Part shown: positions 17,370 through 62,865 of the stretch, piece after piece
How the letters are laid out: every line of letters starts with the position of its first letter
How positions within the stretch are numbered: position 1 is the first letter of the stretch
From: Craterostigma plantagineum
Lineage: Eukaryota; Streptophyta; Magnoliopsida; Lamiales; Linderniaceae
DNA: 64,000 nucleotides
Assembly (NCBI GenBank): GCA_027422505.1
Contig: JAPQWV010000689.1
Location: 1-64,000, forward strand
Direction: 5' to 3'
The notes under the pieces: generated by a model
What the model saw: the letters and a program-made list of their open reading frames with translations, nothing else
The model's database searches: none
Told to the model about the DNA's origin: nothing
Program-made: the position numbers and the translations under genes

Positions 17370-18204
17370 TTTTTATTAATTCACATCGGCCAATTCTCAT
17401 AAATGGGCTACAAGCTCATCCAAACTAATTTTAGCCCATTAACTAAAAAATATTCAATTTTTTTAAAATATACTAAAGATAAGCGCATGTTTTAAGCCCA
17501 TTAACTAATTTTAGCCCATTAACTAAAAATATTCACTTCGGCTCCTCCGTTACACAATTAGCGCATGTTTTAATCGATGCTATAATATATAAATGCAGTT
17601 TATTTAGGGCAACTTAATATAGTAAATAGCGAGCCAACCAACTTCAATAGAATGTCATAAAAAACGGTTAGTATGTTTTTTTTTATATATTTTAAGAGAC
17701 AATATTTAATATATACTTCCTATCTAACTTGAAAATTACTACTTATATAGTAAGAAATCGGTAGGAAAATTTGGTGAAGACAACACAATTAAAACTATTT
17801 TACCCGAAAAAATGAAACTGGAAAGAATGACGGGTAAGATGAACAGTGGAGATGTTATGGTTATTAGAAGATATATAACGGAGGAGCATGTATTCTTTAC
17901 AAGCATGATATATAGTGAAAGGTCGAATTACTCTAATATTCTGCTTATAACAAGGTTGGTTTGTAATTTCGATGAAAGCTTTTTCCGCTTAGTTAGACAT
18001 GCATGGAGGTATGTAATATAGGTTGGAGACGATATATATATATATATATATATAGATATGATTAAAATGATTTTTGTGCTATTATGCATTGAACAGAAAT
18101 AATGATATATTTTTACTCACTAAATTTTAACAATCAACTGCACTGAGAATACATATTTTTTAAAACAATACATAACAGCTTTTGTTATCTGTACCTCCAC
18201 TTTT
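17370..18204. other. AT-rich intergenic, no gene seen
   Basis: Short duplicated phrases (TTAGCCCATTAACTAA at about 17430 and 17510) and a TA run at 18029-18052 are present. The 69-codon frame at 17812-18021 has no recognisable features. Confidence 0.5.
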
Positions 18205-18251
18205 ATTTATTATCTATTTAAAGATAAATTTGTGGAAGTTACAGCTTGAAC

Positions 18252-18262
18252 GTCCCACATCG
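18252..18262 (+). promoter_or_regulatory. Upstream sequence element (USE) of small-RNA gene, copy A
   Basis: GTCCCACATCG matches the plant snRNA USE consensus RTCCCACATCG exactly. It lies 21 bases before the TATA box. That short spacing marks RNA polymerase III genes such as U6, whereas Pol II snRNA genes use about 33 bases. Confidence 0.88.
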
Positions 18263-18283
18263 ATTCGTAATATGATGCTTTTG

Positions 18284-18291
18284 TTTATATA
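18284..18291 (+). promoter_or_regulatory. TATA box of small-RNA gene, copy A
   Basis: TTTATATA lies 21 bases after the USE and 23 bases before the predicted transcript start at about 18315, as in plant U6-type promoters. Confidence 0.85.
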
Positions 18292-18314
18292 TTACATTAT
18301 CAAATATACGGGCC

Positions 18315-18536
18315 ACTGGCGAGGGCTGAGGTTGCCACGAATAGTTGAACCCTAAACCTTCTCTCTGCTTATCAGAGACCATGTAATAAAAGATGGTTAT
18401 TTCGCCCGAGATTTTCCCTCACTAAATGAAAAATAATCTCCGATGCCGCGCGTGTGGTTCCAACCTCAGTGTTGTCTGTGTCTGACTCGTAGGTGGTGGG
18501 CCCGCTTGGCGCGTGATTTAGCGTCCCTCACCTTTT
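18315..18536 (+). ncRNA. Telomerase RNA-like gene, copy A
   Basis: The roughly 222-nt transcript is predicted between a Pol III USE/TATA promoter and a TTTT terminator (18533-18536). Near the 5' side is AACCCTAAACC (18348-18358), one and a half complements of the plant telomere repeat TTTAGGG, as expected for a telomerase template. The template is enclosed by CTGAGGTT (18326-18333) pairing with AACCTCAG (18462-18469). The ends pair as GGCGAGGG (18318-18325) with CCCTCACC (18525-18532), with one mismatch. A hairpin TCTCTG/CAGAGA follows the template. GAGATT (18408-18413) pairs with AATCTC (18435-18440) around a loop with U-rich and A-rich runs, as in the pseudoknot region. Known plant telomerase RNAs are about 260-270 nt and Pol III made. 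The identification is by inference; this copy is shorter than copy B at 62538-62799. Confidence 0.78.
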
Positions 18537-19254
18537 ACTTTTTCGTCTTTCTTATTGGGTAAATTCCTTATCAGTCTCCATTCAAGTTTAAACTTCCTCT
18601 TAAATATCCTTCGAATTTTTTCTTCCTGATCAGTGTCCATTTGCGAAAAGTTTCCTGCTTAATACCCAAAATGCGTGAAAAGACGAGAATAACCCTTCCT
18701 TAAGGATTTAAAAAACTTTCAGATTATTGCATCACATGTAGCAAGTATTATACCATGAAAACAACTAATTATACCCAAAATCGAACATATAATTTTACCA
18801 ATAAAAATAGATATTATACCAATTGTTTCAATTTTATACCAAGTCAAATTTAAAATTATTATACCGATTGTTATTATTATTATACCAACAAATAGTGTTA
18901 TTATAATTTTTATGTATGAAATAATCTTTGCACATCATACTACGAACGGCAATATTATATCAACAAAAGGGAATATTATACCAACAAATGTTCAAATAAT
19001 TATACCAATAAATTCAATTATTATACCAATAAATAAACTAATTTTTATATTATTATTTTTTCACTCAATTTCTGACTATTATACCAACAAAAGATCGCAT
19101 TATACCAACTGTTTTAGCTATTCTACCCGAATTACTTTGCATAACATCGTACCAAAAAACTTGTCTATTATACCACCAATTTCTGGTATAATAGCAAAAT
19201 TAGTTGGTATAATCTCCGATTTTGCTGCATAAAATTAATATGACTACATTAATT

Positions 19255-20540
19255 GGTATAATAACGAAGAAAGATGGTATAATAACGAAAATATATGGTA
19301 TAATTTTCACAATTTCTGGTATAATTGCAACAATTAGTTGGTATATAATTCAATTTCGCTGTATAAAATTAAAATAACAATATTTATTGGTATAATAACG
19401 AAAATAGATGGTATAATCTCCTCAATTTCTGGTATAATAGCAAAATTAGTTGGTATAATCTCCAATTTTACTGTATAAAATTAATATAACTATATTAATT
19501 GGTATAATAACGAAGAAAGATGGTATCACAACGAAAATATATGGTATAATTTTCACAATTTCTGGTATAATTGCAAAACTTAGTTGCTATATAATTCAAT
19601 TTCGCTGTATAAAATTAAAATAACAATATTTATTGGTATAATAACGAAAATAGATGGTATAATCTCCTCAATTTCTGGTATAATAGCAAAATTAGTTGGT
19701 ATAATCTCCAATTTTGCTGTATATAATTAATATAACTATATTAATTGGTATAATAACGAAGAAAGATGGTATCATAACGAAAATATGTGGTATAATTTTC
19801 ACAATTTTTGGTATAATTGCAAAAATGAGTTGCTATATAATTCAATTTCGCTGTATAAAATTAAAATAACAATATTTTTTGGTATAATAACGAAAATAGA
19901 TGGTATAATCTCCTCAATTTCTGGTATAATAGCAAAATTAGTTGGTATAATCTCCAATTTTGCTGTATAAATTAATATAACTATATTAATTGGTATAATA
20001 ACGAAGAAAGATGGTATCATAACGAAAATATATGGTATAATTTTCACCATTTCTGGTATAATTGCAACAATTAGTTGCTATATAACTCAATTTCGCTGTA
20101 TAAAATTAAAATAACAATATTTGTTGGTATAATAACGAAAATAGATGGTGTAATCTCCTCAATTTATGGTATAATAGCAAAATTAGTTGGTATAATCTCC
20201 AATTTTGCTGTATAAAATTAATATAACTATATTTATTTGTATAATAACGAATAAAGATGGTATAATAACGAAAACATATTGTATAATTTTCACAAATTCT
20301 GGTATAATTGCAAAAATTAGTTGCTATATAATTCAATTTCGCTGTATAAAATCAAAACAACAATATTATTGGTATAATAACGAAAATAGATGGTATAATC
20401 TCCTCAATTTCTGGTATAATAGCAAAATTAGTTGGTATAATCTCCAATTTTGCTGTATAAAATTAATATAACTATATTTATTTGTATAATAACGAATAAA
20501 GATGGTATAATAACGAAAACATATGGTATAATTCAATTTT
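19255..20540 (+). repeat. 246-bp tandem repeats inside MULE
   Basis: The unit beginning GGTATAATAACGAAGAAAG starts at 19255, 19501, 19747, 19992, about 20238 and about 20483, a period of 245-246 bases. Each unit is itself made of 25-35 base sub-units around GGTATAAT. At about 20545 the orientation flips. Confidence 0.9.
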
Positions 20541-20544
20541 GTTG

Positions 20545-21130
20545 TATATTAATTTTATACAGCAAAATTAGAGATTATACCAACTAATTTTGCTATTATA
20601 CCAGAAATTGAGAATATTATACCATCTATTTTCGTTATTATATCAATAAATATTGTTATTTTAATTTTATACAGCGAAATTGAATTATATACCAACTAAT
20701 TTTTGCAATTATCCAGAAATTGTGAAAATTATACCGTACGTTTTCGTTATTATACCATCTTTCTTCGTTATTATACAAATAAATATAGTTATATTAATTT
20801 TATACCGCAAAATTAAAGATTATACCAATTAATTTTTGTTACTATACAAATAAATATTGTTATTTTAATTTTATACAGCGAAATTGAATTATATAGCAAC
20901 TAATTTTTGCAATTATACCAGAAATTGTGAAATGTATACCATATATTTTCGTTATTATACCATCTTTCTTCGTTACTATACCAATAAATATAGTTATATT
21001 AATCTTCTACAGCAAAATTGGAGATTATACCAACTAATTTTGCTATTATACCAGAAATTGAGGAGATTATACCATCTATTTTCGTTACTATACCAATAAA
21101 TATTTGTTATTTTAATTTTATACAGCGAAA
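20545..21130 (-). repeat. Inverted block of the same 246-bp repeat
   Basis: The reverse complement of the repeat unit runs for a little over two units here, so 20000-21130 forms a near-perfect palindrome centred at about 20545. Outside it, 18740-19190 has the repeat word in TATACC orientation and 21170-21740 in GGTATA orientation. Confidence 0.85.
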
Positions 21131-21917
21131 TTGAATTAGTTGACTTAATGTTGATGCTGTGAGTATAATTCCATATATAGTGTTTTTAAGTACAATATTT
21201 GAAACAGTTGGTATAATATCAACTTCTGTTAGTATAATTGTCAGAAATTGGATTGAAACATCATAATGTAATAAATTGGTTTGTTGGTATAATATTATGC
21301 TCTGCTGGTATAATTTTCAGAATACTTTTATGGTTAAATTTTCGTAGTTGTTGGTATAAGTGTCGGTCTGTGTGGTATAATTTGAGTATTTCAGATTTAA
21401 CAATAACTTAAAATTACATTATTTACTGGTATAATGTTGATATCATATGTTATAATTAATTATTTTTAGGTACTTTTTGAATATTTTGTTGGTGAAATTT
21501 TGGATTTTGATGGTATAATTTTCGTCTTTGTGGGTATAATGTAGAAAGATCAATTCGTATGATAACTCTTATTTCTTAGTATAATTTTGACATCTATTGG
21601 TATAATACTCTTAAATTTAACTAGATATGATAATGTCAGCTGTTGGTATAATAACTATGTCTATTAGCAAAATAGTATATTTCTTCTGTGGTATAATAAC
21701 ATCTTTTGTTGGTAGAATAATCGCATCTCATGGTATAATATTCTGAAAATTGTTTTGCAATTGTAAAGAAAGGTTATTTCCGTCATTTCAATGTTTGGGG
21801 TATTAAATAGAAAACTTTTCGCAGATGGGTACTGATCAGGAAGAAAAAATTCGAAGGGTATTTAAGAGGAAGTTTATAGTTGAAAGGTGATTGATAGGGA
21901 ATTTACCCTTTCTTATT

Positions 21918-51570: not shown

Positions 51571-53316
51571 ATGAAGAATGATCAAATAGTTAAAACCCTA
51601 TGCGCCATCTTAATAAAAGGACAAAGGGACAACCTATTGAGGCCAAAGATCGTTCCTTTATTCACCTCATCCGTGGTTCATCAGACTCTATTAGCTCTAA
51701 ATCGCCATGGGTTTTCCGTCGCCTGGTCATTTTTCAAGTGGGTCGAAACCGTTCCTCAGTACGAGCACTCTTTGCAGTGTTCCTGGACGATGATCTGCAT
51801 TCTCACCAAGCAAAGGCATTTTAGGGCTGCCCAGAATTTGCTGCACAAAGTTGCCAGGAAGGATTTCATCTCATCTCCGACCGTTTTGAATGTCCTAGTG
51901 AGTAGCTTCGATGATTCCGATGTAAATTCCCACGTTTTGAGCTGGCTAGTCATTCATTACGCTCGTATGAAGGCAAATGCCGATGCATTGCAAGTGTTTG
52001 AACACATGAGGGTTTGTGGGTACGCCCCTCATTTGCACGCTTGTACTGTTCTTCTCAGCTCTTTGGTGAAGGAAGGACTCGTCGATTCCATGTGGAAGAC
52101 TTACAAAAAGATGGCAAAAATCGGGGTTGTTGCTAACTTACACGTTTATAACGTATTGATTCATGCTTGCTGTAGGTCGAGGGACGTAGAGAGAGCTGAG
52201 GAATTGTTGGGGGAAATGGAGTCGAGCAACATATTCCCCGATCATTTCACGTACAACACGTTGATTTCCTTGTACTGTAAGAAGGGTATGCATTACGAGG
52301 CCTTAGCTGTCCAAGATCGAATGGAGAGGTGTAATATACCCCCAGATATCGTGACGTATAATGCACTGATATATAGTTACTGTAGAGAAGGCAGAATGAG
52401 AGAAGCCTTTAGGATGTTTAAGGAGATTAAAGGCGCTTCGCCTAATCACGTGACATATACGACTTTAATCGATGGTTTCTGCAGAGTTGGTGAGTTAGAT
52501 GAAGCTTTAAGCTTACGCAGTGCAATGGAGGCCGAGGGGTTGTACTTAGGGGTGGTTACTTACAATGCTATCTTGAGGAAATTATGCGAAGATGGTAGGA
52601 TACAAGATTCTAATAGGCTCTTGAACGAAATGGGCGAGAGGAAAATCGAGCCCGATAATGTCACTTGCAACACGCTGATCAACGCTTACTGCAAGGTTGG
52701 AGATACGAAATCTGCTTTGAAGGTGAAGGGTAAGATGTTAGAGGCCGGGCTTAAGCTTGATCAGTTTACTTACAAGGCACTAATTCATGGGTTTTGCAAG
52801 GGACAAGATGTCACTAGAGCTAAAAGTGTGCTGTTTGAGATGCTTGGGGCGGGATTTTCTCCAAGCTCTTGCACTTACGCATGGTTTGTGGATTTCTATT
52901 GCAGCCATGACGATGAAGACGCCGTGCTGAGGTTACCCAACGAGGTTGTCCAGCAGGGTTTTGTTGCTGACGTCAGCGTTTATAGGGCTATTGTGAGGAG
53001 ATTGTGTAAGAAAGATCGAATAGGGTGTGCCAAGAAACTGTTTGAAATGATGCAGAGAAGGGGGATTTTGGGAGATTCCATTATATATGGTTGTTTGGCT
53101 TATGCTTTTCTAAGAGCTAATGATGTCGGATCTGCTTTGGCTTTGTTCGATGAGATGTATAAGAGGCGTATGGTGATAAATCTGAGGATATACAGAAGTA
53201 TCTGTGCTTCTTATTCGAATGACAGCGAAAATTTAGTCGTGTTGTGGGATTATTTGCATAAGAAGAGCTTGATTTCCAGAGCTTGTTTCAACCAAATCCA
53301 GCAAATGAAGCTGTAA
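51571..53316 (+). CDS. Pentatricopeptide repeat protein (At5g38730 type)
   Basis: The intronless frame of 581 residues starts MKNDQIVKTLCAILIKG. From about residue 150 to 560 it consists of consecutive 35-residue P-type PPR motifs. Examples are HVYNVLIHACCRSRDVERAE, FTYNTLISLYCKKGMHYEA, VTYTTLIDGFCRVGELDEA and VTCNTLINAYCKVGDTKSA. No E, DYW or PLS modules are present, so it is a P-class protein, which usually stabilises, splices or helps translate organelle RNA. Residue order and the N-terminal FSVAWSFFKWVETVPQYEHS segment fit the Arabidopsis At5g38730 family. A broken copy of its last 228 codons is at 1648-2333. Confidence 0.94.
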   Translation: MKNDQIVKTLCAILIKGQRDNLLRPKIVPLFTSSVVHQTLLALNRHGFSVAWSFFKWVETVPQYEHSLQCSWTMICILTKQRHFRAAQNLLHKVARKDFISSPTVLNVLVSSFDDSDVNSHVLSWLVIHYARMKANADALQVFEHMRVCGYAPHLHACTVLLSSLVKEGLVDSMWKTYKKMAKIGVVANLHVYNVLIHACCRSRDVERAEELLGEMESSNIFPDHFTYNTLISLYCKKGMHYEALAVQDRMERCNIPPDIVTYNALIYSYCREGRMREAFRMFKEIKGASPNHVTYTTLIDGFCRVGELDEALSLRSAMEAEGLYLGVVTYNAILRKLCEDGRIQDSNRLLNEMGERKIEPDNVTCNTLINAYCKVGDTKSALKVKGKMLEAGLKLDQFTYKALIHGFCKGQDVTRAKSVLFEMLGAGFSPSSCTYAWFVDFYCSHDDEDAVLRLPNEVVQQGFVADVSVYRAIVRRLCKKDRIGCAKKLFEMMQRRGILGDSIIYGCLAYAFLRANDVGSALALFDEMYKRRMVINLRIYRSICASYSNDSENLVVLWDYLHKKSLISRACFNQIQQMKL

Positions 53317-53656
53317 TTGTACAAAAGGTTAATTCTTGGTTCTTTTTCTTATGATTTCGACCAAATACAGTGTGTGTGTGTGTGTCTATATATAAGGAGT
53401 CTAATTCTGGCATCTTATTTAACAGCGTCTAACCAGAATTTCACTGTTATATAACGGCGTCTCGTATCAGGTTTTCTTGGATCTAGCACGCACGATGACC
53501 TCAAACATCTTTGTAAGAACAATGCCTTTGACTAGTTCTATCTTTCTGTCCACAAAAAATATGCAGTGCCTTTGTTTTTGGATCTCTCTCATGTCTCAAT
53601 ACTATGTTTGGACAGCTGAGATCCACATTGCATGCTTCAAAAAGGGCCTCAAACTG

Positions 53657-53665
53657 CTATAAATA
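53657..53665 (+). promoter_or_regulatory. TATA box of KIN gene
   Basis: CTATAAATA lies about 106 bases before the start codon at 53771. The equivalent site in the left arm has lost one A. Confidence 0.7.
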
Positions 53666-53770
53666 CCAGCAACTCCTTGTGTTCTATCATCTTCACCAGC
53701 AAAATTACAAAGCTTTTCGATACATTCTCTTGTTTGAAGTCTCTCGATTTTGGTTGTTTATACAAGTAAG

Positions 53771-54156
53771 ATGGATTCCAACAACATGAGCTACCAAGCT
53801 GGCCAAGCCAAGGGACAAGCCCAGGTAAGAAAAATCACATCTTTCCCAGCAAATTAATTTTCATGAGCATTTACAATCATATCGAAGTTCTTTCTTTTTC
53901 TGTTGGATTTAGGAAAAAGGCAATCAGATGATGGACAAGGCAAGCCAGGCTGCTCAGTCCGCCAAAGAATCAGCTCAGAATGTAATTTTAACTGCTACGA
54001 ATGAATCGTCAAGCTTAATCAGTTTTCATATTTCTTTGAATTATATATATGATTTTATTTTGCGGATATTCTTGGCTTTAGGCTGGACAGCAGATTCAAG
54101 AGAAGGCACAAGGAGCTGCCGACGCTGTGAAGAACGCGACAGGGATGAACAAATGA
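53771..54156 (+). CDS. KIN/COR6.6-like small stress protein
   Basis: Three exons (53771-53824, 53913-53981 and 54082-54156), all phase 0, give 65 residues. The protein is hydrophilic and rich in Ala, Gln, Lys and Asn, without Cys or Trp. It matches the KIN1/KIN2/COR6.6 layout: SYQAGQAKGQAQEKGNQMMD, then QAAQSAKESAQ and an end AADAVKNATGMNK. The Arabidopsis relatives are 66 residues with the same three-exon structure and are induced by cold, drought and abscisic acid; pollen forms also exist. It follows the PPR gene by about 450 bases in the same direction. Confidence 0.92.
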
Positions 54157-55589
54157 AGAGCTTCGATCGCCTGCTATTTTTCCGTGGCTTTTTTATCATA
54201 CTATTATTACTACTACGATTAGTATAATTTCTTGATACTACGGCATCACGCCTTTAGACGATGTTTTGTGTTGGTAATAATCTGGTTTAAGCAACCTTAG
54301 GTTTGCTTTCTGTTAGACTGAGCTGTTGTCTTGTCAGCATTTAGTGTCTCTATAGCTTCTATATGTACGTACTTACTTGGGAAGAAAGACTAGAGATTCT
54401 GATGATGGTCTCAATGTTTTCTTTGCTTCATGAAATAAAATAAATGCGATTTTTAGCATTCTCTTCTTCGTGCGATGATATTCCCATTGTTTTATATTTG
54501 AATTAAAAAGAGTTATTAGATAGCTTTTATCTTAAATATTCAGCGAAAAAAAAACAGGCAAAAATGCAAATGTTGGAATTTTTGACAAGGATCATCCCGT
54601 AAGAAGTAATAGCCATCCTTGCACACTCTATGTATGTGCAGTTAATATAATTTTGAAGAAAAAAACAGTTTACTCAACTTATGTAGTGAATAGTTTTGCA
54701 TAATAATTTTACTATTTATTTTATGTTTTAATTATCAAAACATCATGAGTTATTTTTCTATTGTATTTAAGTAGGGAAGAAAGAAAACTAATGTAACAAG
54801 ATAACATAGAGAGGTATAATGATAATTATCATTTTAAAATTAAAGCATTTTCTATGAGGTCCTAGGCCCTAATAAAACAGAAAGATATTATAGCACTATT
54901 TCATTTTCCCTCTACAAATAAAATCCTTGAAAATGTTATTATTATTAGGGATCTTTACACATAAATACCCATTTATGTAAAAGTTTCGCAAATCAGACCC
55001 CTGTCAGATTTTTTTTATATGCAGGTACCTGTCAAGATAAAATCCGGGTTTGGACCCGCCCCATTGCCATGCCTAGCAACAACCAACCCTATATTTCGAT
55101 TAAATCAACTTTTGTTGAGAAAGAAATAAATTTTATTCCCACGAGAACTATTACAAACTATCGCATTTCCATGACATACTTGGCATTCCTACCAACCATC
55201 GGTTATTGCATGTCAGGTTTGGAGATGTATGAGTCAATACATAACATACTCAACTTGTTCACCACCGCCGATTTATTAATTTTTTTTACTGTTCACCACA
55301 TCCCATATCGGCTTCCAATGCTCGCAACATTCCATTTTTCACATTGAGACCACCTTGTCTTCTTCATAGTGGAGATACTCTATCCCAATTGGTCAACTTT
55401 TTTCACCACATACTTTGGCATAAGGAATCACGAAAAAACAGATAATATGAAAACCACGTCGTTTGATCTATATATGTCGATTATTTGACCACTTTTCACC
55501 GCCTTTAGATTTTACAAGCATTGAACTCTCTTCACCTTGAAAGTCCAATGCATCCGTACTACGTACACTCGGTGATGACATAAACAATT
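54157..55589. other. Intergenic; dispersed repeat phrase, no gene
   Basis: 54157-54973 is the 3' flank inside the inverted duplication. At 54946-55035 lies a phrase (AGGGATCTTTACACATAAAT ... GCAGGTACCTGTCA) that recurs at 63671-63755 and, inverted, at the window start. The 92-codon frame at 55069-55347 shows no known domain. Confidence 0.5.
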
Positions 55590-56210
55590 TGTTGGGGAAT
55601 CAGCTGCTATAGGTTCGTGATTGAATGTACTTTCCTCTATGATTGATTACCAGTCCAAGAATTTGGATCTTGAACTCGAACGGATCGAAAAACAGACGAA
55701 AAACAGAAAATAGAGAATACGCAGATTTACGTGGTTCGGCCCCTCTTTTGGCCTACTCCACGGATCAAACAGAGCACTTTTATTCAATCTAAGAGAAGGG
55801 ATTACAAGATACGTACTTACTCTCCAACTCTTACGTTTACAAGTCACTCAGAAACTCACTCTATGAAAAGATACGAACGCTCCAAGATCACTAGTCGACC
55901 CCTGAAATCTGATAAAGAATCTGCTTATAAAGCTTCAGGTGGAAACTATCCGTTGGATGACGTCAGCAACTTATCCCAACTGCCTTATGAGTATTACTTA
56001 TAGAATCGTTCTTGCTAGTAGCAATTCTTCAGGACTCCCACTTACTAAATTGCTTTTAACACCAACGACTTCTTCTCGTGAATAGATCGCTGAAGAACTT
56101 TTCATCAGCATGCAACTTATTCCTAGAGCTCAGACCATTTATCATCGCAGTTAAAAAAAAATCAGATCGCATGCCTTCATCAGCGAAGTTTAGGCTCACA
56201 AAACCCAACA
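55590..56210 (-). repeat. 3' LTR of non-autonomous copia element
   Basis: The 621-base LTR is read on the minus strand from TGTTGGGTTTTGTGAGCC (ending at 56210) to GATTCCCCAACA (55590). The outer 270 bases match 58208-58486 nearly perfectly. Confidence 0.85.
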
Positions 56211-56429
56211 AATCTCCACCTGAGACTAGAACTTCCAACTCCTCTACCCATTCGCACTTTTACAGCCCAAACGAATCCATAGGACCCGCTTGAAAGTCAT
56301 ACCAGAACCAGATTTTTCCAGGTTCCATTTTCAGTTTCTGACCATTGCAGTCCATCTTTATGTCCCTGCAATTCCAATCAAGGCTCCACCTTGATTCATA
56401 ATCCGTGCTCTGTTGATCTTCCAGCTTGC

Positions 56430-58190
56430 TTAACAGCTGCGAGCCTCAAAAGTAACCTTGCCAACTCCAAGTGAGATTGAAATCTCCCACTTAGAGCTAA
56501 CTTGGTACTTTGAGGTCTCCACCTTCATCTCTGAAGAACCATTCTCATTCCCAGCTTCATGAACTTCAGTACAAGTCCATTTACTGCCATTTTCAGCGGG
56601 CGTCTTGGTCTTCCTTGCAGACACGACCTCAGCCAATCCCAGCGATTCCTCAGATTCGATGTCAGCTTCTAGCAACTCTTTTTCAGGTGTTTGAGCCTCA
56701 CCATCTTCACTTCCAGCCACTTCGGATGCTAACTTCGAACATGGCATGTGAATACTTCTTCTCCTTGGTGGATTCTTGACCTTATCTTGATCAGATTGCT
56801 CATTTTCGGAGCAACTATCACCTAAGTCGCTTTCAGCCATTTCTGCAAAATCAGAAATTTCAGACTTGAGCAAAGGTTTTGCACTTGCTTTCTCCACCTC
56901 GAGAAGAGGTCTCTTGGACCTGCCCTTGACAATATTCAAACCACCACATTTCCTAGTTTTCGTGGTTTTGAATTTCTTCACCTGGCATCCATCCATCACG
57001 TAGATACCATTCCTTCGAGACCCACTCAAAACCAGCTTTCCCTGTTTCATAATTTTGAGTTTACCAGCTGCAGTTTGGGTGGAATATCCCTCTTTATCCA
57101 AGGCTCCAATGGAAATGAGATTCCTCCTTATCTCAGGCACATACTTGACATTCTTGAGGACCATCTCATCTCCATTCTTGAGCCTTAAGCGTACGTCGCC
57201 AGCTCCAAATATTTGACAGCTTTTATCATTTCCCAGCCACACCATTTCCTTCTTTGATACTCTGAAATTTTCGATGCTTTCCTTGTCACATGTAATATGA
57301 AATGAGCTCCCCGAATCAAGGATCCATTCCTTGTTCATTTCTTTCCCAGAAGCGGTGAGAATTTCTGCAAATTCAAGATCATCATTAGAGAGAAAATCAG
57401 TGGCAGAATTCACTTTACCATGGTTTGAGTTTGAGCCATTTCTTTTCGGGCAGCTCCTTATGTGGCCCTCTTCTTGACAGTAGTAGCATCTCACGGACTT
57501 TCTTGGCTCGAACTTCTCCTTTCCCGTGCCTTTCTTTCTCCAAGAATTCCCCTTTTCCTTAGCATACAACAGTTGGGCAGATTCTTGACTCTCATATTCA
57601 TTTCTCGTGTTCAGCTGCCGGGAATTCAACGCTGAAAGTACGTCATCAAGCTTGAGCTTTTCCCTTCCATACAAGATCGCCTCTTTGAAATGGTTGTGAC
57701 TTCTTGGCAGTGCACAAAGGAGTAAGAGCGCTTTATCCTCATCCTTCATTTCTTCGCCAACGTTTTCAAGATCAAGAATAAGCTTGCTAAACTGATTCAA
57801 CTGCTCATCTATCGGCTTCTCTTCTTCCATCTTGAACTTGTAAAGCGCTTGCTTCAAGTACAACCTCTTGGCCAATGATCTTGTCATGTAAAGCTCTTCC
57901 AATTTCTTCCATACGCCTTCAGCAGAGGTCTCTTTTGCCACATTTCTCAACACTTGATCTGAAAGACAGAGTATCAACGTCGAATAGGCTCGCTCTCGGA
58001 TCTTCTTCTTGTTCGCTTCCGTCATATCTTTCGGCTCCATTTCTTTCTCAGGCTTCAGCGCCTCCTCGAGCCCTTTCTCTGTTAACAGCGCTTTCATCTT
58101 CATCTTCCACAGGCCAAAATCGTTTTGGCCATTAAAGATCTCCATCTCGAACCTCGTCGCAGCCATCGTCTTCGTCACGCTTCGTTCCAA
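56430..58190 (-). CDS. Intact copia gag-protease ORF (586 aa), non-autonomous
   Basis: The ORF opens MERSVTKTMAATRFEMEIFN. A UBN2/gag domain covers about residues 15-210 (ERAYSTLILCLSDQVLRNVA, YLKQALYKFKMEEEKPI, LLCALPRSHNHFKEAIL). The zinc knuckle is at 235-247 (CYYCQEEGHIRSC), with three instead of four residues between H and the last C. The aspartic protease motif WILDSGSSFHITC is at 289-301. A pre-integrase-like stretch (LVLSGSRRNGIYVMDG) ends at about 405. The last 180 residues are Glu/Ser-rich and unlike integrase. The frame is uninterrupted, unlike the other elements here, which suggests recent activity in trans. The start is only 18 bases from the 5' LTR. Confidence 0.88.
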   Translation of the reverse strand: MERSVTKTMAATRFEMEIFNGQNDFGLWKMKMKALLTEKGLEEALKPEKEMEPKDMTEANKKKIRERAYSTLILCLSDQVLRNVAKETSAEGVWKKLEELYMTRSLAKRLYLKQALYKFKMEEEKPIDEQLNQFSKLILDLENVGEEMKDEDKALLLLCALPRSHNHFKEAILYGREKLKLDDVLSALNSRQLNTRNEYESQESAQLLYAKEKGNSWRKKGTGKEKFEPRKSVRCYYCQEEGHIRSCPKRNGSNSNHGKVNSATDFLSNDDLEFAEILTASGKEMNKEWILDSGSSFHITCDKESIENFRVSKKEMVWLGNDKSCQIFGAGDVRLRLKNGDEMVLKNVKYVPEIRRNLISIGALDKEGYSTQTAAGKLKIMKQGKLVLSGSRRNGIYVMDGCQVKKFKTTKTRKCGGLNIVKGRSKRPLLEVEKASAKPLLKSEISDFAEMAESDLGDSCSENEQSDQDKVKNPPRRRSIHMPCSKLASEVAGSEDGEAQTPEKELLEADIESEESLGLAEVVSARKTKTPAENGSKWTCTEVHEAGNENGSSEMKVETSKYQVSSKWEISISLGVGKVTFEARSC

Positions 58191-58207
58191 CGACTCGCCG
58201 CACCACT

Positions 58208-58486
58208 TGTTGGGGAATCAGCTGCTATAGGTTCGTGATTGAATGTACTTTCCTCTATGATTGATTACCAGTCCAAGAATTTGGATCTTGAACTCGAACG
58301 GATCGAAAAACAGACGAAAAACAGAAAATAGAGAATACGCAGATTTACGTGGTTCGGCCCCTCTTTTGGCCTACTCCACGGATCAAACAGAGCACTTTTA
58401 TTCAATCTAAGAGAAGGGATTACAAGATACGTACTTACTCTCCAACTCTTACGTTTACAAGTCACTCAGAAACTCAGAAACTCACT
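58208..58486 (-). repeat. Truncated 5' LTR of non-autonomous copia element
   Basis: Starting TGTTGGGGAATCAGC at 58208 on the plus strand, it equals 55590-55868 except for a duplicated CAGAAACT near 58468. It then stops at GAGGGGAGGAT, the purine tract of a different LTR. Confidence 0.85.
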
Positions 58487-58500
58487 CTTGAGGGGAGGAT

Positions 58501-58690
58501 TGTTGGGTGAGTCAAAACCCAATCCCACACCGAAATAATGAAAGAAAAATTAGTGGTTTATAAGCTTGTGGGTTCACTCCCTCTATTGCCAATTGGTTTT
58601 AGAGAGGAACCCCACAAGCTTATACGGACCTGGAATTGGGTCTGAAAAATCCCTACACAATTAAAACAACAGCCCAAGTTAGGAAAAAAA
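58501..58690 (+). mobile_element. LTR fragment of another copia element
   Basis: A purine tract (TTGAGGGGAGGAT) is followed by TGTTGGGTGAGTCAAAACCC, a typical copia LTR start with CCCACACCG and an inverted CCACAAGCTTATA/TATAAGCTTGTGG pair. The right end is uncertain and no coding part is attached. Confidence 0.55.
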
Positions 58691-60780: not shown

Positions 60781-61558
60781 ATGGCGTCTATAAGTAACGG
60801 AGGAATATCATTCTTTTATTTCATGATGATTCTGCTTGCTCTAGAAATCACAGTTGCGAATGGGCATGAAGGTATGTATGTGTATTTATTTATCTGTTAG
60901 TGTGCGTCTGTGAGTGCTGTATATATTTGTATATATATGATGAATGTCCTTATTTCTCATCTAAGTTACCGCGCGCTCATGAAATGGAATACTACGATGT
61001 AACGCCACTTTCTTTTTCTTTTTTGCTCACAGGTAAACTGGGAACCAGTAAAGAGTGGAAAAGAGAAGATGATGATGATAAGAGCTTTCTCCCTCAAAGG
61101 GTAATTATAATAAGCTGATGATTAATAATTACATAAGAAACCATTTCTTAAACTATACTTTGCTCTAGGATTTAGTGTAATATAACTAATTTCTCTCAAA
61201 AGCAGGCTTTCTTCGATGGTACTATCGATGTAATGAGTTTAAGAAACCCTCTTCATGGAAGGAAATTGTTGCAAGAAGCAACTAACAAAAGATCATCATC
61301 ATACACTCCAGGTTCAGGTACGACAATATAATTATATATATGTATTATTTTCAATCTTGGCCCGTGGGTCGGGTCAACGGGTGGGTCGTGGGGCTTTGAC
61401 AAACGTTGATTGCGATAAAATTTCGTGCAGACGCTGATGATTCTAAAGCGCTTCTCGAGGCAGTCGATGAAGTTGCAAATTTGATGGGCAAAGACTATGG
61501 AGGAAAAGTTAAGGCTAAACGAAAACCACCCATCAACAACAAAGAGCCCATCAATTAA
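60781..61558 (+). CDS. Secreted peptide precursor, RGF/GOLVEN/CLEL-like
   Basis: Four exons (60781-60871, 61033-61100, 61206-61317 and 61431-61558) with consistent phase give 132 residues. The N-terminus (MASISNGGISFFYFMMILLA) is a signal peptide ending near ANGHE. The middle is variable and charged (KREDDDDK). The C-terminus LMGKDYGGKVKAKRKPPINN resembles the RGF/GOLVEN hormone motif: a DY tyrosine-sulfation site, then basic residues and PPINN/PPIHN. The family controls root meristem maintenance and gravitropism through RGI receptor kinases. The spacing from DY to PP is nine residues rather than the usual six, and a short KEPIN tail follows. Assignment to this family is therefore probable but not certain. 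Confidence 0.62.
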
Positions 61559-62537: not shown

Positions 62538-62799
62538 AAAAAGGTGAGGGCGACTGACGAGGACATACTAGTGAACCCACAAAGCGACGTTAAGTCACGC
62601 GCCAAGCGGGCCACCACCTACGAGCCAGACACAAAGCTGAGGTTTGAATACACGCGCGGCATCGGAGATTTTTTTTTTGGTTTGGAGAAGGGAAAATCTC
62701 CGGCGAAATAACCCTCTTTTATAACTTGGACTCTGATAAGCAAAGAAGGTTTAGGGTTTAACAAACCGTGGGCCCACCTCAGACCCTCACCGACGTGGT
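62538..62799 (-). ncRNA. Telomerase RNA-like gene, copy B
   Basis: The 262-nt transcript is predicted on the minus strand from a start 23 bases after the TATA box to a T5 terminator (62538-62542). The size fits the 260-270 nt of known plant telomerase RNAs. The template AAACCCTAAACC is at 62748-62759 (two partial complements of TTTAGGG). The ends pair perfectly as GGTGAGGG (62784-62791) with CCCTCACC (62543-62550), directly before the terminator. CTGAGGT (62776-62782) pairs with ACCTCAG (62637-62643). A GGAGATTTT/AAAATCTCC stem with U- and A-rich strands matches the pseudoknot region. The post-template hairpin keeps pairing through a G-U change. It aligns along its whole length with copy A but has about 40 extra bases near the 3' end. 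Identification is by structure and context. Confidence 0.83.
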
Positions 62800-62822
62800 G
62801 GCAGAAAAGGATCATAATGTAA

Positions 62823-62830
62823 TATATAAA
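62823..62830 (-). promoter_or_regulatory. TATA box of small-RNA gene, copy B
   Basis: TTTATATA on the minus strand, 24 bases after the USE and 23 bases before the predicted start. Confidence 0.82.
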
Positions 62831-62854
62831 CAATAGCGAAATCGTATACCTAGT

Positions 62855-62865
62855 CGGTGTGGGAC
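62855..62865 (-). promoter_or_regulatory. USE of small-RNA gene, copy B
   Basis: GTCCCACACCG on the minus strand differs from the RTCCCACATCG consensus at one base. The spacing to the TATA box (24) is of the Pol III class. Confidence 0.82.

Follow-up and report, generated by a model that had tools for sequence, protein, structure and literature searches.

The locus at 62538-62865 of the window, by which we mean the whole stretch of 64,000 nucleotides from Craterostigma plantagineum analysed here, raises the question of whether its minus strand carries a genuine telomerase RNA (TR) gene, and what a second, related locus in the same window has to do with it. The window is plant nuclear DNA, with tRNA-Asp, PPR, proline dehydrogenase (ProDH), AAA/FtsH-like, IF-2B, DUF677 and retroelement genes. 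Judged from its sequence, the locus (copy B) is very probably a genuine plant telomerase RNA gene that looks intact, and its kind is already known.

Anatomy of copy B and of copy A

The predicted telomerase RNA transcript of copy B runs on the minus strand from 62799 (nt 1) to 62538 (262 nt), and the segment from USE through T-run covers 62538-62865, as the sequence-only reading had placed it. Counting from the first T of TTTATATA, +1 was placed 31 nt further on in both copies; this start geometry and the 24-bp USE-TATA yardstick are those of Arabidopsis U6-26. The TATA box TTTATATA (62823-62830, minus) follows 24 bp after the USE GTCCCACACCG (62855-62865, minus), which is type-3 Pol III spacing, the one departure from the USE consensus being a C for T at position 8 of TCCCACATCG (T8C). 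The USE consensus is given as RTCCCACATCG (PMC9845283, PMC12268498). A Pol III terminator T5 is found at 62538-62542 (minus). The length of 262 nt to T5 compares with 262 or 268 nt for AtTR, which is handled as nt 1-262 with P4 at 179-187/241-249 in PMC11093817, so the claimed closeness to known plant TRs holds. The template region TAAACCCTAAACC (62748-62760, minus, nt 40-52), with the template UAAACCCUAAACC, is a permuted telomere repeat of more than one unit and predicts TTTAGGG repeats; CCCTAAA arrays occur in the genome. These 13 nt equal the template region printed for wild-type NsTR (PMC6765143). Copy B resembles AtTR/AtR8 and NsTR in its type-3 Pol III promoter, length of about 262 nt, template, T-run terminator, pseudoknot candidate and a P4 near the AtTR P4 coordinates. 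By analogy with this family, it would belong to the type-3 Pol III class, with transcription by Pol III from 62799 to a stop in the T-run (62538); the RNA of 262 nt would bind TERT via the pseudoknot and P4 region, and UAAACCCUAAACC would direct the synthesis of TTTAGGG repeats.

Copy B has a stable fold (z -4.12), equalled by none of 200 shuffles; its antisense strand gives z -1.50, with 13 of 200 shuffles as stable. The closing stem, two inner stems, the post-template hairpin and the pseudoknot candidate are all complete. The closing (terminal) stem joins GGUGAGGG (62784-62791, minus, nt 9-16) to CCCUCACC (62543-62550, minus, nt 250-257); its 8 bp are perfect in copy B and include one C x A mismatch in copy A, just as had been noted earlier. 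A P1b-like stem pairs CUGAGGU (62776-62782, minus, nt 18-24) with ACCUCAG (62637-62643, minus, nt 157-163), and the post-template hairpin is CUUUG-CUUAU-CAGAG (62731-62745, minus, nt 55-69). The pseudoknot candidate (62663-62716, minus) consists of P2 (nt 84-88/108-112) and P3 (nt 98-105/130-137). The P4/P5/P6 region (62550-62632, minus) was obtained with RNAalifold and has the hairpin P5-P6 inside P4; in copy B, P4 is nt 168-176/242-250, with one U x U mismatch, and nt 250 belongs both to its outermost pair and to the closing stem. The free fold of copy B gives a probability near zero for the pairs of P1b, P1c and the hairpin, and forcing the closing stem and P1b gives -85.2 vs -91.4, a cost of 6.2 kcal/mol.

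Among the copies, 139 of 144 cells are paired in the closing stem (18 distinct copies), 122 of 126 in the P1b-like stem and 89 of 90 in the hairpin, all three without covariation. For P4, counted over seven pairs, the figure is 116 of 119. P3 and P4 are the only stems whose pairing few column shuffles reach (30 of 500 and 33 of 500). All 500 shuffles pair equally well for the closing stem, P1b, P1c, the hairpin, P2 (whose counts are affected by alignment gaps), P5 and P6, though the pairs of P5, P6 and the closing stem are largely kept outside the A-clade described below. An earlier P4, AGGUGGUGG/CCCUCACCU (nt 181-189/250-258), chosen by eye on AtTR P4-like coordinates, was replaced by GUGUCUGGC/GUCAGUCGC, the choice of RNAalifold on 14 copies (116/119 vs 141/162 cells paired for the former), and the terminal stem was then dropped as a competitor of P4. 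With the by-eye criteria, including the P4 later replaced, 2000 shuffles gave a P4-like stem in 1085, P1-like pairs in 852, pseudoknot-like pairs similar to the P2/P3 pairs present in copy B in 401, and all three in 85. The stems by themselves prove little.

Copy A (18315-18536, plus, 222 nt) is a decayed TR paralogue. The alignment of the two copies claimed earlier was recovered at 18190-18528 (plus), with 281 of 354 columns identical (79%, E 1e-76). Copy A has the template region TGAACCCTAAACC (18346-18358, plus) and a perfect USE GTCCCACATCG (18252-18262, plus), which stands 21 bp before TTTATATA. A deletion leaves it 36 nt shorter than copy B in the 3' part and takes away the P4 3' strand (0 of 7 pairs); P2, P3 and the closing stem each contain mismatches, and the fold gives z -1.34, with 24 of 200 shuffles as stable. 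Four relatives (L027-L030) show the same stem mismatches and spacer fault without the deletion, and L031 has a separate deletion. The sequence-only reading had held that the differences between A and B preserve pairing. This is so in the hairpin (C-G in A, U-G in B), but the differences in P2/P3 break pairing in A, which has also lost the 36 nt, so the statement is true of the hairpin only. One C/U change that keeps pairing is, moreover, weak evidence for a selected structure.

The telomerase RNA family and a retrocopy

Copy B, as a query of 291 bases, gave 33 matches in the genome (1.71 Gb, 6262 contigs). Manual grouping reduced these to 25 loci, namely A, B and 23 others (L010-L032). Nineteen of them are unsplit and six are split by insertions. 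In a tree of the unsplit copies, one lineage contains B, L010-L016 and L019, and the other contains A, L017, L018, L023, L024 and the A-clade (L027-L031). Contigs C28 and C376 show the same order as the window, namely DUF677, A-lineage TR, IF-2B, ProDH, AAA/FtsH, PPR, RGF and B-lineage TR, which suggests that the inverted A/B pair probably predates the divergence of these segments; DUF677 also lies beside an A-lineage copy on C1, C17 and C1243. Copy B is one of about 25 TR-like loci and forms, with copy A, an inverted pair, probably old, around the IF2B-ProDH-FtsH-PPR-RGF block. In number this one assembly differs from land plants of the AtTR/NsTR type, as according to PMC12133305 a single copy of TR is usual in most other plants. 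The same paper presents a proposal in which telomere sequence change passes through a duplicated-TR stage. Such a stage is apparently present here many times over in one genome, with intact-looking, decayed, transposon-split and retrocopied TRs.

Among the split copies, the insert of L020, L025 and L026 starts with TAGGGGTGTTCA, with CTCATCAG on either side; we presume from the duplication length that it is hAT-like. L021, L022 and L032 are also split by insertions.

Conservation was assessed in 17 aligned pairs, eight of which were tested together with the B-A pair of the window, with flank lengths that differ by pair and uncorrected p values. Between copy B and L013, mismatches number 13 of 260 (5.0%) in the transcript vs 30 of 181 (16.6%) in the 200 bp downstream (p 7e-5), or 34 of 241 (14.1%, p 6e-4) when 60 bp upstream are added to the flank. 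The transcript is also closer than the flanks in L017-L018 (p 0.004), L018-L023 (p 0.02), L013-L017 (p 0.02) and L013-L023 (p 0.006). There was no significant excess conservation between B and L010 (p 0.15), L017 and L023 (p 0.46) or B and L017 (p 0.16), nor any extra conservation of the transcript between B and A (180/213 vs 131/152 in the flanks, p 0.77). Fold z is -3.08 or lower in every one of the 13 unsplit copies that lie outside the A-clade, and between -1.44 and -2.36 in all six A-clade copies. Covariation, a check proposed with the sequence-only reading, was sought among the paralogues: from 14 copies RNAalifold derived 57 pairs, of which a single one, in P3 of L013, is changed on both sides (G-C to A-U). 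Apart from this compensatory change the signal is thin. A both-sided P4 change in L014/L016 was rejected as covariation, two CpG deaminations within what would be a dead retrocopy being the better reading.

Three loci (L014, L015 and L016) carry a promoterless TR that is 95.8-96.6% identical to copy B. Its first base corresponds to 62799, the predicted +1, and its last to T5; one further matching C may be due to chance. The arrangement on C431 (L034, 1276-1536) is GACTCTCTAGGTCCG, TR, 5'-truncated LINE, A-rich tail and then an identical 15 bp. The LINE part has a zf-RVT match (Pfam, E 8e-12). On this arrangement, the TR-LINE unit can be recognized as a chimeric LINE retrocopy with a 15-bp target-site duplication. 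It is tandemly duplicated on C911 (L014 and L016), and since the flanks are common to all three copies, these stem from one event. As the retrocopied part extends from the predicted +1 of B to the T-run, a B-like RNA was at one time transcribed in the germ line, and the retrocopy maps both ends of this past RNA. Chimeric LINE retrocopies are already a known kind (PMC4476161, PMC2104539). The TR-LINE is like the U6-L1 type in joining a small RNA to a 5'-truncated LINE, with a target-site duplication and an A-rich tail, but here the small RNA is telomerase RNA and the genome is that of a plant. Among the papers listed by our literature search, none combined 'telomerase RNA' and 'chimeric retrogene'.

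These data bear on whether copy B is active. A dicot U6 promoter depends critically on position 8 of its USE, where T8G was causal for the loss of activity (PMC12268498). A C at this position is common to copy B, L010, L011, L012, L018, L019 and all six split copies, and a perfect USE with a 24-bp spacer is found in L013, L017 and L023. Copy B may be silent though intact, kept off by T8C while another locus, such as L013, L017 or L023, supplies the telomerase RNA. We regard this as possible but as the less probable case, since T8C is not known to be inactive and the retrocopy shows past transcription of a B-like RNA. The locus from which the retrocopy came probably had T8C as well, L013 being the sole promoter-bearing copy of the B lineage without it. 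It is somewhat more probable than not that copy B is expressed at present. An unrelated Pol III gene, or a resemblance to TR by chance, seems very improbable. No Rfam family exceeded its cut-off at copy A or B, and covariation is thin as described, but template, promoter, length and terminator occur together, there are about 25 relatives in most of which the template core is kept, and the fold of copy B is far from that of shuffled sequences. Searches with conserved 19- to 24-mers found no match in IMG/VR and, among GTDB genomes, a single match in a MAG of Burkholderiales that is put down to chance. For two AtR8 primers given in PMC7151572, the alignments with B and A did not exceed those of shuffles (195 to 774 of 1000). 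The description of copy B as a full-length telomerase RNA-like gene is therefore favored by anatomy, fold, conservation, the P3 change and the retrocopy, whereas the pair first described turns out to be two of about 25 loci.

Template base and telomere repeats

One difference between A and B, at the 5' base of the template, was absent from the sequence-only reading and may be the most important of all. The base before AACCCTAAACC is A, as in copy B, at nine of the 25 loci (including L011, which lacks one C), G, as in copy A, at 12, and T at one (L017), the template being altered or partly lost at the remaining three. Both main types have intact-looking paralogues, copy B and L010 for the A-type and L013, L018 and L023 for the G-type. 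Exact genome matches to five units of CCCTAAA number 1497, some of them short stretches within other sequence (L058-L060); with four units there are 167 for CCCTGAA, 0 for CCCTTAA and 1 for CCCTCAA. Reversed-pattern controls gave 0 matches. As overlapping matches were each counted, these are numbers of matches, not of arrays. Among the matches listed, CCCTGAA was found on C10 (one match, at 50-77, near the contig start), C40, C80 and C255.

Our reading is that the TR family would specify two telomere repeats, TTTAGGG (copy B) and TTCAGGG. A G-type RNA copied to its 5' end would give a product ending in GGGTTCA, and TTCAGGG would result after a one-mismatch realignment, which would be needed in every round because the 5' half of the template alone carries the G. 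That the G-type paralogues (UGAACCCUAAACC) make TTCAGGG repeats is plausible, though we hold it at slightly below an even chance. TTCAGGG is a telomere variant in Capsicum, where telomere reads were sought with TTTAGGG or TTCAGGG (PMC11106260), and is named for Genlisea hispidula (PMC12133305). Capsicum and Vestia (PMC12133305) and Mimulus lewisii (PMC12169523) are reported to have TR paralogues that make two types of repeat. The present genome resembles these three in having TR paralogues that differ in template and two repeat types, but the two copies of M. lewisii are on different chromosomes (PMC12169523), while here an inverted pair surrounds a conserved gene block.

The TTCAGGG arrays may instead be internal satellite variants unrelated to the G-type templates, the variable base lying outside the copied template and all working TRs making TTTAGGG. 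This we consider a serious possibility, if one that we lean against. It would explain why the base may be A, G or T while AACCCTAAACC is kept in most copies, and it agrees with the pericentromeric TTCAGGG blocks of Cycas (PMC9827991) and with the absence of exact four-unit genome matches to TTAAGGG, the repeat expected from the T-type template of L017. Yet of the three alternative units CCCTGAA alone has many matches, G is the commonest template base, and one exact four-unit CCCTGAA match lies at bases 50-77 of C10. Returning to two repeats specified by the TR family, we tentatively suggest, without giving it even odds, an old inverted TR pair present on several homologous segments, with intact members of A- and G-type and mixed TTTAGGG/TTCAGGG telomeres, the decaying member depending on the segment. 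The interest of the system lies in how large the family is, in its conserved inverted pairs and in two main template types that match two abundant repeat types, so that the link between template base and telomere repeat is testable within one plant.

Surroundings of the two copies

A 3352-bp element with long inverted ends lies at 18557-21908, 20 bp behind the T-run of copy A, between 9-bp direct repeats TTTCTTATT; from the length of this duplication we take it to be Mutator-like. It contains a 246-bp tandem repeat whose copy number seems to vary between contigs (C1243, C376). An inverted duplication (1-2328 vs 52629-54977, 96%) involves the end of the PPR gene together with the region downstream of it; it is either young or an artefact of assembly where the contig starts. 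Identity with other contigs shifts around 54.7-58.6 kb: to the left most long C376 matches are 98-99.7% identical, to the right 87-93%, and those of C28 there are 95-97%. A haplotype switch, an exchange between homologous segments or an assembly join may each account for this shift. At 55589-58476, two identical 270-bp direct repeats flank a copia-type gag ORF, which looks like a young LTR retrotransposon. A third USE-like sequence, ATCCCACACCG, is found at 58522-58564, with TTTATAAG 24 bp later and a possible hairpin behind, without a template. Finally, the plus-strand gene at 60781-61558 has, near the end of its last-exon product as read by eye, DYGGKVKAKRKPPINN, which in our view resembles an RGF/GOLVEN root growth factor peptide.
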